Assembly (NCBI GenBank): GCA_002479245.1
Contig: DLMG01000168.1
Location: 250 to 11,017 of the forward strand
Direction of reading: 5' to 3'
Origin: Verrucomicrobia subdivision 3 bacterium UBA7542
GTDB taxonomy: Bacteria; Verrucomicrobiota; Verrucomicrobiia; Limisphaerales; UBA11358
DNA length: 10,768 nt
Position 1 is the stretch's first letter, and the number at the start of each line of letters is the position of its first letter. A model generated the notes under the pieces. That model was not told the origin of the DNA and did no database searches. It saw only the letters and a program-made list of their open reading frames with translations. The position numbers and the translations under genes were made by a program. Positions 3,989 to 10,768 of this stretch are shown here, in pieces.

Positions 3989-5134
3989 TCAACGCCACAC
4001 CAAAATCTTGCGGACTGCGTTGACCAAAGCCTCCGCTTCCGCCGCCGTGCCAATCGTAATTCGCAAATAATCCTTCACCTCCGGCCGGTCAAACCAGCGC
4101 ACGAGAACTTTTTGGACGCGCAAGCTTTGCAGCCACGCCTGCGCCGAAAATCGCGGTGGCCGGACGAGAATAAAATTCGTCCGGCTCGGCAAAACCCGGA
4201 AACCGAGCTTTGTCAACTCGCGACTCAACCATTCGCGCGTGGCGTTGATTTTTTTGAAATTCGCCCGGTAATACGGCAAATCGTCCAGCGTTGCTTCGGC
4301 GGCAATCTGGCCGAGGCCGTTCACATTGTAACTGTCACGAATCTTGTGCAGCGCGGCGATGAGGTCGCGATGCCCGACGAAATAGCCGACCCGCTGGAAG
4401 CACAGCGAATACGCCTTTGAGAACGTTCGCGCCACGAGGACGTGCGGATATTTCAACGCCAGCTTCAGCGCGTTTTCCCCGGCAAAATCCACGTAAGCTT
4501 CGTCCAGCACGACGACGCCACGCTGCGCTTTGCAAAGCGCGTCGAGTTCGCGTGTCGAGTATCCGCGCCCGCTGGGCGCGTTCGGCGTGGTTACAAACGT
4601 CAGCGCGGCGCGAAAATTCCAGATCCTGCCGCGCTTCAACTCCGCCATGCTTGGCAGGCTGAAATCCGACTTGAGCGGCACTGTATTCCTGGCCGCCCCG
4701 TGAATATCCGCCAGCACCGGGTAAAGCGAATAGCTGGGGTGGAAGTATTGGACAACGTGCTGCCGGCATCTTGCCGGCAGTTCTGAATGAAGTTTGATCT
4801 TCCGGAGGGACGCCGGAAGCACGTTGGCTGGCTCCACAAAGCACCGCGTCGCCAGCGCCAGCAATTCATCCGAGCCGTTGCCGACGATGATGTTGTCCGC
4901 GTGGCAACGATGCAGCTTCGCCAGCTTTTCACGCAGCACCTGCGCCGTCGGATTCGGATACAGCCGCAACCGGCCATCCACCGCCGCCCGTACCGCCGCC
5001 AGCACCTTCGGTGCCGGCGGATACGGACTCTCGTTCGTGTTGAGCTTGATCAACCCCTTTATCTTCGGCTGCTCGCCATAGACATAAGGGTGCAACTCGC
5101 GCACCAGCGGACGGATTAATTTGGGATTGGGCAT
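3989..5134 (-). CDS. hisC: Histidinol-phosphate aminotransferase with in-frame palindromic insertion
   Basis: The protein is 381 residues, slightly longer than usual (about 355-365). This PLP enzyme converts imidazole-acetol phosphate plus glutamate to histidinol phosphate. Family landmarks are 'IKLNTNESPYPP' (residues 29-40), 'GNGSDELL' (85-92), 'TPNAPSG' with PLP-contacting N185, 'DEAYVDFA' with D211 and Y214, the Schiff-base lysine K240 in 'TFSKAYS', R248 in 'QRVGY', and the substrate-binding arginine in 'YLRITIGT' (about R358). Residues 104-127 (NVLPASLRKIKLHSELPARC and four more) are an extra block encoded by a palindromic element at 4754-4825. Without it the chain reads '...CFVEPAN-VQYFHPSYSLYPV', the normal family sequence. 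The gene starts 9 bases after vapC and has no convincing promoter of its own, so it probably depends on read-through from vapBC or hisD. All catalytic residues are intact, so it should be active if the insertion is tolerated. Confidence 0.93.
   Translation of the reverse strand: MPNPKLIRPLVRELHPYVYGEQPKIKGLIKLNTNESPYPPAPKVLAAVRAAVDGRLRLYPNPTAQVLREKLAKLHRCHADNIIVGNGSDELLALATRCFVEPANVLPASLRKIKLHSELPARCRQHVVQYFHPSYSLYPVLADIHGAARNTVPLKSDFSLPSMAELKRGRIWNFRAALTFVTTPNAPSGRGYSTRELDALCKAQRGVVVLDEAYVDFAGENALKLALKYPHVLVARTFSKAYSLCFQRVGYFVGHRDLIAALHKIRDSYNVNGLGQIAAEATLDDLPYYRANFKKINATREWLSRELTKLGFRVLPSRTNFILVRPPRFSAQAWLQSLRVQKVLVRWFDRPEVKDYLRITIGTAAEAEALVNAVRKILVWR
4754..4825. repeat. Palindromic element, family A, in frame inside hisC
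   Basis: The 72-bp element has perfect outer arms aacgtgct (4754-4761) and agcacgtt (4818-4825) enclosing two hairpins. Hairpin 1 is TGCCGGC-ATCTT-GCCGGCA, starting at 4761. Hairpin 2 is CTTCCGG-AGGGACG-CCGGAAG (4799-4819). An 18-base spacer separates them. It is exactly 24 codons long and adds residues 104-127 to HisC. A second copy lies in the phosphorylase gene at 10146-10217. Confidence 0.88.
5015..5113 (-). repeat. 99-bp direct repeat, copy 1 (start of full-length hisC)
   Basis: This block covers codons about 7-40 of hisC. It matches 5979-6077 at 94 of 99 positions by hand alignment, in the same orientation. The flanks on both sides are clearly less similar. Of five differences, three are silent and two change residues (E/K and S/N). 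The two copies flank the vapBC pair. Confidence 0.85.
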
Positions 5135-5908: not shown

Positions 5909-5969
5909 GTTTGGAGTTCCGCCTTCAGGCGGCTCACACACCAAACCGCGTAAACGCGGAACTCCGAAC
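5909..5969. repeat. Two-hairpin palindromic element (GTTYGGAGTTCCGC termini)
   Basis: The outer arms 5909-5922 and 5956-5969 are complementary at 13 of 14 positions. Two perfect 6-bp stems lie inside: CCGCCT/AGGCGG (5919-5932) and CCGCGT/ACGCGG (5946-5959). A 13-base spacer separates them. The element begins exactly where the truncated hisC copy loses its similarity to hisC, and it supplies the copy's stop codon. Confidence 0.8.
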
Positions 5970-6101
5970 CTGCGACAACGGCGGATACGGATTCTCGTTC
6001 GTGTTGAGCTTGATCAACCCCTTGATCTTCGGCTGCTCGCCATAGACGTAAGGGTGCAACTTGCGCACCAGCGGGCGAACGAGCGATAAAGTTTTTCTCA
6101 T
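5934..6101 (-). pseudogene. Truncated hisC copy (N-terminal about 45 codons)
   Basis: Reading from ATG 6101, the frame gives '[20 protein letters not shown]', then '[21 protein letters not shown]' split across the block, nearly identical to the start of the intact hisC. After 'PYPPLSQV' the frame enters the palindromic element and ends at 5934-5936. No aminotransferase core follows, so no active enzyme can be made. The copy carries the usual family motif NENPYPP where the intact gene has NESPYPP. It starts 10 bases after the small membrane protein gene, in the place where hisC would be expected downstream of hisD. It is therefore probably the remnant of the original hisC start, or a product of partial duplication when vapBC arrived. 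Confidence 0.85.
5979..6077 (-). repeat. 99-bp direct repeat, copy 2 (in truncated hisC copy)
   Basis: This is the partner of 5015-5113, in the same orientation at an offset of 964 bp. Homologous recombination between the copies would excise vapC, vapB and the nearby palindrome and leave one complete hisC reading frame. Confidence 0.85.
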
Positions 6102-9634: not shown

Positions 9635-10768
9635 TTAAATGACTTCCGCAACCAATGGAGTCTTGCCCGGTTGCTTCGTAGAAATTTCAAATGCCGTTTT
9701 CAACCGGGCGATTGCGGATTTGGTCTGGACTGAATCTGTGGCGTGAACGCGGCACAGTCTTTCAGATTTTTCCACGCGCTCGCCGGGTTTGGCGATTTGA
9801 TCCACACCCACGTCGTAGTTGATGGCGGAGTCTTTCGTGAGCCGCCCGCCGCCGAGGTCGCGGATGACTTCGCCGATGATGCGGGCGTCGCACTTCGCAA
9901 CGAATCCCGGCTTTTCGGCCTTCAATTCGATAATCACCGGCGCGGTGGTGTCGAGCGCCAGCTTTTTGTTGAACGCACCCAAATCCGCGCCCTGGGCAAC
10001 GAGCATTTCGTCCCATTTCTTTCGCGGTGCCCCGGAATTTAAACAATCCTCAGCCTGTTTGCGCGCGGCGGCGAGCGTTTTGGCCTTGCGCGTTTGCACC
10101 AGCAAATGCGCGGCGCAATCAAGGACGAGTGAGCGGAGGTCGGCGAACGTGCTGCTGGCATCTTGCCGGCAGAACTGACTTGATTTGCCCTGCCAGCGGG
10201 ACGCTGGCAGCACGCTTGGATCGAGACACGCCACACTTTCCTTCACCTCCAGCCAGTTGCCGGCAGCGCGGCCCAGCGGCGTGTTCATGTCCGTGAGCAC
10301 CGCCCGGGTGTTCACGCCGCATTCATTCCCGAGCGCAACCATTGCTTTTGCAAGTTTGCGGGCGTCGGTCCTGGTTTGCATGAACGCGGCGCAGCCGAAT
10401 TTCACGTCCAGCACGAGCGCATCAAGGCTTTCGGCGAGTTTTTTGGAAAGAATTGAGGCGGTGATGAGCGGGATGCTCGGCACGGTGCCGGAAACGTCGC
10501 GAAGCGCGTAAATTTTCTTGTCGGCCGGAACCATCCGGTCGGTCTGGCCGCAGATGACGCAACCGACTTTCTGGACCTGCTCGACGATTTTTCCAGCGGG
10601 TAGCAAGGTTTTGAAACCGGGAATGGAATCGAGTTTGTCGAGTGTGCCGCCGGTGATGCCCAGGCCGCGCCCGGAAACCATCGGCACGCGGAAGCCGAGG
10701 CACGCGAGCAGCGGCGCGAGCGGCAGCGAAACCTTGTCGCCAATGCCGCCGGTGGAATGTTTGTCCAC
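9635..10768 (-). CDS. deoA: Thymidine/pyrimidine-nucleoside phosphorylase (5' end beyond right edge) with in-frame palindromic insertion
   Basis: These are the last 377 codons; the gene begins outside the window. The enzyme cleaves thymidine, deoxyuridine or uridine with phosphate to base and (deoxy)ribose-1-phosphate. Signature motifs are 'DKHSTGGIGDKVSLPLAPL' (visible residues 2-20), 'SGRGLGITGGTLDKLDSIPG' (32-51), 'LVLDVKFGCAAFM' (118-130, where the family usually has KxGxGAFM) and 'MNTPLGRAAGNWLEVKES' (161-178). The C-terminal alpha/beta domain has 'AARIIGEVIRDLGGGR'-like sequence near 295-309 and 'DVGVDQIAKPGERVEK' (319-334). Residues about 186-207 (VLPASRWQGKSSQFCRQDAS and two more) are an extra block from the palindromic element at 10146-10217; without it 'VACLDPS' joins 'FADLRSLVLDCAAHLL', the normal pattern. 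deoA and pdp cannot be told apart with certainty from this fragment, so the symbol is tentative. Confidence 0.88.
   Translation of the reverse strand: MDKHSTGGIGDKVSLPLAPLLACLGFRVPMVSGRGLGITGGTLDKLDSIPGFKTLLPAGKIVEQVQKVGCVICGQTDRMVPADKKIYALRDVSGTVPSIPLITASILSKKLAESLDALVLDVKFGCAAFMQTRTDARKLAKAMVALGNECGVNTRAVLTDMNTPLGRAAGNWLEVKESVACLDPSVLPASRWQGKSSQFCRQDASSTFADLRSLVLDCAAHLLVQTRKAKTLAAARKQAEDCLNSGAPRKKWDEMLVAQGADLGAFNKKLALDTTAPVIIELKAEKPGFVAKCDARIIGEVIRDLGGGRLTKDSAINYDVGVDQIAKPGERVEKSERLCRVHATDSVQTKSAIARLKTAFEISTKQPGKTPLVAEVI
10146..10217. repeat. Palindromic element, family A, in frame inside the phosphorylase gene
   Basis: The outer arms aacgtgct (10146-10153) and agcacgct (10209-10216) pair at 7 of 8 positions. 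Hairpin 1 is TGCTGGC-ATCTT-GCCGGCA (10153-10171, one wobble pair). Hairpin 2 is CTGCCAGC-GGGAC-GCTGGCAG (10190-10210, perfect). The spacer is one base shorter than in the hisC copy. The hairpin-1 half is almost identical to that copy (26 of 27 bases over the arm and hairpin), while hairpin 2 has changed on both sides with pairing kept. Confidence 0.88.

Follow-up and report, generated by a model that had tools for sequence, protein, structure and literature searches.

What kind of sequence is a 72-bp palindromic element that lies within hisC of the soil-dwelling Verrucomicrobia subdivision 3 bacterium UBA7542 (Limisphaerales), how did it come to occupy a coding region, and is it translated there? 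The gene is carried on a stretch of 10,768 nucleotides, hereafter the window. The evidence presented here favours a non-autonomous, REPIN-like mobile palindrome, for which a RAYT residing in priA is the inferred mobiliser and whose in-frame copies would be translated as flexible linkers, a reading to which we assign a probability of roughly 0.8.

The palindromic element in hisC

The element (Table 1) consists of two head-to-head hairpins, and its 72 nt make up exactly 24 codons of the minus-strand hisC ORF, as the first-pass annotation of this DNA had read it. The perfect 8-bp outer arms described there, AACGTGCT (4754-4761) pairing with AGCACGTT (4818-4825), are present and would be extended to 9 bp by the pair C4753/G4826; so are the two inner hairpins. 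The fold of positions 4744-4835 was matched by none of 200 shuffles (z -3.6), and this result, the copies found elsewhere in the genome and the covariation of the stems rule out a chance palindrome. A known Rfam RNA was rejected as its identity, the window having no match at gathering scores. The source genome encodes a second HisC-like aminotransferase (37% identical, G000:C358:396-1385), so that the hisC of the window may not be the sole such enzyme.

Table 1. Features of the window and half-units bordering the priA RAYT
Feature	Position	Strand	Basis
REPIN-like element (family A), 24 codons in frame in hisC, peptide NVLPASLRKIKLHSELPARCRQHV	4754-4825	-	sequence, fold, genome copies
Hairpin 1 (REP unit) CTGCCGGCATCTTGCCGGCAG	4760-4780	+	perfect stem; covariation
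Hairpin 2 (inverted REP unit) CTTCCGGAGGGACGCCGGAAG	4799-4819	+	one mismatch; covariation
hisC, histidinol-phosphate aminotransferase, host gene	3989-5134	-	ORF, Pfam Aminotran_1_2
Second family-A element, in frame in pyrimidine nucleoside phosphorylase gene, SVLPASRWQGKSSQFCRQDASSTF	10146-10216	-	genome search, open frame
Pyrimidine nucleoside phosphorylase, cut by window edge, host of second copy	9635-10768	-	Pfam Glycos_transf_3, PYNP_C
Inverted-repeat element, separate family (TGGTGGGGACGCCGCGCTGCGGCGTCC...)	2159-2212		matches at four other genome places
Palindrome of a third family (GGAGTTCCGCCTTCAGGCGG...)	5909-5969		63 genome matches, both strands counted
110-bp copy of the 5' part of hisC (5004-5113)	5968-6077		91% identity
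Family-A half-unit beside priA RAYT	C411:6518	+	
Family-A half-unit beside priA RAYT	C411:7253	-	

A dispersed repeat family in coding loops

The element belongs to a dispersed repeat, here termed family A. Copies in the source assembly (4.42 Mb, 428 contigs, 70% complete) were first found by a BLAST search and a pattern search; the latter, allowed at most two mismatches, had 42 matches forward and 27 in reverse, its reversed control 1 and 0. A covariance model, by which most copies were matched on both strands, yields at least 41 distinct copies among the 81 scored candidates listed. The genome search that the first-pass annotation had proposed thus found the element far from unique, and the objection that it might occur nowhere else falls away. 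From the loci then known, 32 full hairpin pairs of 59-113 nt and six unpaired half-sites were extracted. Their common architecture is that of two inverted hairpin units, each beginning with ACGTG at its outer end, and a spacer of variable length; the core lengths fall in all three classes modulo 3. Across 31 aligned copies, 8 of 21 stem pairs have changes on both sides.

Family A extends beyond this genome. The model has matches in 25 of the 59 genomes searched (source genome included), among them 31 hits in G004, 42 in G018 and 53 in G040, which belongs to another family. The exact half-unit pattern matched 33 stretches in named genomes, a set from which source-genome records may be left out; 32 of these come from records titled Verrucomicrobia, Verrucomicrobiia, Verrucomicrobiota or Limisphaerales, and one from Phycisphaerae.

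For 32 of the 41 copies, most of them in housekeeping genes, the frame stays open across the element and to either side of it (25 tabulated sites, hisC, and five and one further copies), a count that holds partly by definition, since a gene broken by the element might go unrecognised. These copies bear out the suggestion, made from the hisC element alone, that a coding palindrome is spreading in this lineage. Besides the two hosts in the window, Pfam identifies class II tRNA synthetases (C104, C424), ValRS, IleRS and a U32 peptidase (the last two with two copies each), proteins with PheT domains (C254, C94), MetH, GcvP, RecJ, RsmB, TsaD, a topoisomerase, PriA, DnaE, DnaG, DNA ligase, HypF, YbeY, an AIR-synthase-domain (PurL-like) protein, a DUF255 protein, a CofH/MqnC-type protein, an aminotransferase, a GTPase, a PAD-family deiminase and a molybdopterin-binding oxidase. 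The host in C340 has no Pfam match, but its orthologues align; the copy in C208 lies in an open frame with no Pfam match, and those in C94 and C6 have a contig end or a masked stretch nearby on one side. The nine other copies comprise four with different recognised genes to either side (C253, C350, C374, C270), three next to a single recognised gene (C198, C411:9386, C418), and a duplicate pair in C127 without any. From the open frames we infer that the 24 codons are translated as part of HisC, and the family-A blocks likewise within their hosts.

The copy in the phosphorylase gene had no part in the hisC finding of the first-pass annotation; at this site, G031 and G060 have a different repeat peptide. 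Two further palindromes of the window, at 2159-2212 and 5909-5969, were considered as members of family A and rejected as separate families. An element similar to the latter occurs in frame in the DUF255 orthologue of G060. In the window, the palindrome at 5909-5969 is directly adjoined by the duplicate of the hisC 5' part, an arrangement that looks as though host sequence had been duplicated beside an element.

The hisC loop across the genus

The hisC loop was read in 46 genomes of the genus, source genome included (41 parsed by program and five by eye), out of 49 with a match, the other three having only a paralogue or a partial hit. All 46 carry a linker at this place, of about 3-27 residues and differing in sequence, so that removing the block yields no known ancestral state; in relatives there is no contiguous HisC segment at this place, in contrast to the claim that the element splits one. 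The alignment with relatives that had been proposed along with that claim nevertheless indicates that the block is not common to them as an ancestral part, the linkers being unrelated. Family A occupies the loop in the source genome, a second palindrome in G031, another insert in G060, a third palindrome family in G023, G022, G030 and G005, and a fourth in G025; heptamer tandem repeats are present in 13 of the 41 parsed genomes, and the linker of G013 is 3 residues long. The source genome, G031 and G060 form a supported HisC clade, and all three inserts differ. Linker types show no fit to the HisC tree (17 changes, and 18.2 on average after shuffling, for 41 of the 46 rows), a tree that is poorly resolved, with 6 of 38 inner branches starred. 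Judged from these comparisons, the hisC loop is an insertion hotspot. Both sides of the linker are in one open frame in all 41 parsed genes; that linkers are multiples of 3 is by itself no evidence, because they were cut between anchors in one frame.

The palindrome in the hisC loop of G025 has the same look as the element at 2159-2212 of the window. The heptamer tandem repeats, such as (CAAAATT)n, (GCAGAAA)n and (AACATCC)n, fill coding loops of hisC and metH in frame within the genus, and their unit changes between genomes.

The same sites in sister genomes

Orthologues of 24 family-A sites and of two RAYT sites were sought in G031, G060 and G015. At 24 of the 25 tabulated sites (C208 was left out of the query) and at hisC, one or more of the three genomes gave a host alignment that covers both flanks of the site. 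G060, of the same genus as the source genome, shares family A at seven sites, in RsmB, ValRS, GcvP, one of the U32 sites, TsaD, C424 and DnaE. The other sites often hold different inverted repeats in frame, sometimes tandem repeats and sometimes few residues; at the dnaE site, family A of the source genome and G060 is replaced by another palindrome in G031 and by three codons in G015.

Six of the seven elements shared with G060 have the same length in both genomes, and the seventh is one codon off. For these elements dN/dS is 0.55 (185 codons) against 0.15 for the flanks (614 codons), a comparison that is rough, since the lower dS of the elements (0.18 against 0.41) implies that hairpin constraint or conversion also acts. 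The pattern fits a tolerated linker with some hairpin constraint. Host residues at family-A sites are often replaced and not merely split, and core lengths are not all multiples of 3; insertion is therefore not clean cut-and-paste, and a clean insertion of fixed length is ruled out.

A RAYT in frame within priA

Twelve Y1_Tnp (RAYT) matches were found in the source genome, one of which, on C411, lies between two family-A half-units and in frame inside priA. The 1041-aa ORF passes from PriA through a family-A peptide, the RAYT and another family-A peptide back into PriA, which resumes just before the Walker A motif; Pfam places PriA domains on both sides of Y1_Tnp. The RAYT part matches TnpA-REP 4er8 by sequence (E 1.5e-4). 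The chimeric protein recurs in independent records, P0125 (RAYT part 100% identical, 29 member sequences) and P0127 (90%), and in 40 chosen PriA-RAYTs two His and the Tyr are invariant, with the family-A peptides QRAAGILPA and CRQDAGSTF flanking the RAYT in the consensus. An AlphaFold model of P0125, of moderate quality (mean pLDDT 67.5, pTM 0.51), gives pLDDT <50 for the REP-encoded stretches 212-260, 450-462 and 926-960 and about 89-91 for the HUH core; its best PDB fold matches are PriA structures, and the best 50 listed include no TnpA-REP entry. The model fits a folded HUH domain between disordered REP-encoded linkers. On the strength of the shared repeat, the priA RAYT is the probable mobiliser of family A.

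A second RAYT of the source genome lies in frame in a DinG-type helicase gene, together with another repeat. Within the genus, nested RAYTs are also present in priA of G018, where family-A model hits flank it, in priA of G031, in clpB of G031, G006 and G014, and in alaS of G060 and G013. The priA site has been used by two different RAYT lineages, that of the source genome and that of G031; Pfam Y1_Tnp matches the source priA and dinG RAYTs and, at E 0.001, not the G031 insert, which was recognised by a three-sequence profile and by its motifs. HUH and Tyr motifs are found in all nine chimeras of the genus. Exact repeats of 11-29 nt common to both flanks occur in eight, the shortest possibly by chance, the ninth being the source priA with its half-REPs. 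No splicing domain was found by Pfam in the three chimeras scanned. The examined nested RAYTs show purifying selection as judged by substitution ratios, with dN/dS of 0.10-0.19 in the RAYT part and 0.09-0.34 in the host parts, ratios that are rough since dS of the pairs (0.57-2.25) is partly saturated.

Nested RAYTs and short elements recur at the same sites. The dinG site holds the RAYT in the source genome and, judged by peptide, a family-A element in G060 and a different repeat in G031; the metH site holds family A in the source genome and a RAYT in P0175 and P0176; and the dnaE site, with family A in the source genome and G060, has a RAYT in G138, seen from the downstream side only because the contig starts in the RAYT. 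In RecG of P0177, family-A peptides flank the RAYT. The nested RAYT of the ValRS-type protein P0212 lies at a different place than the source ValRS element. Each of the MetH proteins P0175 and P0176 seems to have a pair of RAYT domains, in separate places.

The data do not support a simple relation of copy number to a cognate RAYT. The source genome and G018 have both, whereas copies without a detected close RAYT are seen in two fragmented assemblies, G004, which has no RAYT match at E 1e-15 for its 31 model hits, and G060, where the best counterpart of the priA RAYT reaches only 38% identity despite the seven shared elements.

Breadth of nested RAYTs

Three protein-database searches with the RAYT part alone, restricted to long proteins, had 1072, 1604 and 1622 hits; the best 120 of each were used. 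All 357 distinct proteins among the matches listed contain a RAYT domain by the three-sequence profile, and in 307 both flanks match one labelled host: AlaRS (108), ClpB (64), PriA (49), DinG (34), RarA (9), RecG (4), CarB (3), two each for MetH, IspG, ValRS, ThrRS, UGPase and SNF2, and 24 in three methyltransferase-type groups, which may be ordinary fusions and not insertions. The labels derive from 18 reference proteins chosen from the hits by Pfam lists, which count themselves, and the counts are skewed towards the three query hosts.

When 245 genomes of the order were searched with the priA RAYT, 27 of the 30 top matches (E <=1e-48, the query included, counted by eye among the matches listed, one with an internal TGA) lay in frames of at least 550 aa, against 11 of the 120 other, lower-ranked rows listed. 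Hosts at the best loci include further PriA as well as DinG, UGPase-type and DnaE proteins, and the eight top matches within the genus each lie in a frame of at least 764 aa. At L294, L300, L295, L296 and L316, RAYTs share one frame with SNF2/type I restriction, CRISPR-associated NE0113 or cyclase domains, as insertions or perhaps as ordinary fusions.

Proposed mechanism and alternative explanations

We propose that a RAYT nested in a host gene would make an active HUH domain within the host protein, and that this domain may act on REP hairpins in single-stranded DNA, probably at replication forks, as has been proposed for other REPs. Its action would spread short REPINs whose insertions land widely, and selection would retain those that are in frame, stop-free and in permissive loops, where they would be translated as flexible linkers. 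The RAYT-carrying form would share this strategy as a resident of a host reading frame, most likely expressed within the host protein. Whether this amounts to a general lifestyle of Limisphaerales RAYTs is, in our estimate, an even bet: they would be expressed in the frames of essential genes (priA, dinG, clpB, alaS, dnaE, metH and others) between REP-encoded flexible linkers and without self-splicing, their REPIN offspring would spread to the same permissive loops throughout the proteome, the host could not easily silence them, and fork proteins may deliver the transposase to single-stranded DNA.

The alternative that survives best, though we consider it the less likely course, is that the nested RAYTs are domesticated domains serving the host protein or the cell and are no longer selfish transposases. 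Purifying selection on the RAYT part speaks for this, as does the grouping of RAYTs in their tree according to host, with 25 changes where shuffling gives a mean of 147 (215 rows); this tree stems from a quick search with at most about 22 database rows each for AlaRS and ClpB, and long branches were warned of, that of G031 priA included. With the G031 priA row left out, distances of RAYT and host are correlated in PriA (Mantel r 0.67) and ClpB (r 0.63). In eight of the nine genus chimeras, all except dinG, there is no ATG in the 40 residues before the RAYT domain, though seven of these eight have GTG or TTG. Against domestication stand the flank repeats of eight chimeras and the half-REPs at the source priA, the patchy presence of nested RAYTs in the genus and the two lineages at one priA site. 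The host correlation is moreover weak in AlaRS (r 0.15), DinG (0.08) and RarA (-0.18), as would fit movement between hosts, so that descent with the host and movement may both occur.

An improbable explanation is that family A resembles the Rickettsia palindromic elements in having no dedicated transposase, a REP having inserted into, or been captured by, the priA RAYT locus incidentally. Genomes with family-A copies and no detected close RAYT would agree with this, as would the statement, in the available part of PMC3733652, that CGTC-type repeats, including Rickettsia RPE-4 and RPE-6, are not associated with transposase genes. The association recurs, however: half-units flank the RAYT in the source priA, model hits flank it in G018 priA, and family-A peptides do so in RecG of P0177 and in the consensus of the 40 PriA-RAYTs. 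We regard it as very unlikely that the element is removed from the mRNA by splicing or skipped by the ribosome, in the way of the palindromic elements of Magnusiomyces mitochondria mentioned in PMC6649704. The hairpin pair is very stable and many hosts are housekeeping enzymes, both of which would suit removal, but the frame would then have no need to stay open, and it is open through 32 of 41 copies and across the linker of all 41 parsed hisC genes, an argument that is partly definitional since only open frames were counted as coding. Finally, that the block is an ancestral functional part of HisC and no insertion is rejected as already contradicted, since, even with a linker of some kind in all 46 genomes read, the linkers are unrelated (at least four kinds of palindrome, heptamer repeats, others, and a three-residue linker in G013), no two of the three closest genomes have the same insert, and at least 40 further copies mark the block as a member of a repeat family.

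Relation to known systems and significance

Read as a mobile REPIN-like palindrome, family A resembles REPIN / REP-RAYT systems (REPtrons) in its two inverted REP hairpins with a spacer, its many dispersed copies and a Y1 HUH RAYT flanked by half-units of the same REP. It differs in that the consensus starts with AACGTG and has no GTAG-type tetranucleotide tag, in that 32 of 41 copies are intragenic and in frame where REPINs are mostly extragenic, and in the residence of the RAYT in a housekeeping frame; lacking the tag, it is named REPIN-like and not a GTAG REPIN. The nested RAYTs may also be compared to inteins, which likewise occupy conserved genes in frame, recur at particular sites and bring a nuclease-type domain; unlike inteins, the RAYT inserts appear to stay in the protein, in keeping with the Pfam result for splicing domains.

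The comparison with Rickettsia palindromic elements drawn by the first-pass annotation holds for behaviour, palindromes being tolerated there in many genes (PMC3733652 and PMC6649704, as far as available) as family A is found in frame in unrelated protein genes. It fails for membership: the Rickettsia elements, of another phylum, have a CGTC tag (RPE-4, RPE-6) and no associated transposase according to the same portions, whereas family A has a REPIN architecture, ACGTG ends and a RAYT flanked by the repeat. Intragenic REPs as such are already known. Di Nocera et al. 2013 (PMC3733652), in the part at hand, report that O. terrae (GTAG) and R. conorii (CGTC) have the most of them, with many placed in repair genes and some in those of tRNA synthetases, and that different REPs occur at about the same place of recB in two Xanthomonas. 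The GTAG REPs of Opitutus terrae and others are like family A in forming in-ORF dimers that encode 20-30 residues, in lying in genes for DNA repair and, in certain species, for tRNA synthetases, and in being richest in a Verrucomicrobiota species; they are unlike it in being mostly intergenic, and that part describes no RAYT nested in a host ORF. In a limited literature search, partly of incomplete texts, we found no published description of RAYT genes nested in frame in housekeeping genes. The RAYT survey of PMC6006769, in the portion available, discarded unexpectedly long proteins, attributing them to gene fusions or annotation errors, and surveys that drop long RAYTs in this way may have missed real biology.

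Family A points to mobile DNA whose usual home is the coding loops of housekeeping genes, with a transposase hidden in frame there. Its sites provide a natural map of insertion-permissive places in universal enzymes and a source of new protein loops, and the nested RAYTs offer a testable case of transposon-host protein fusion.
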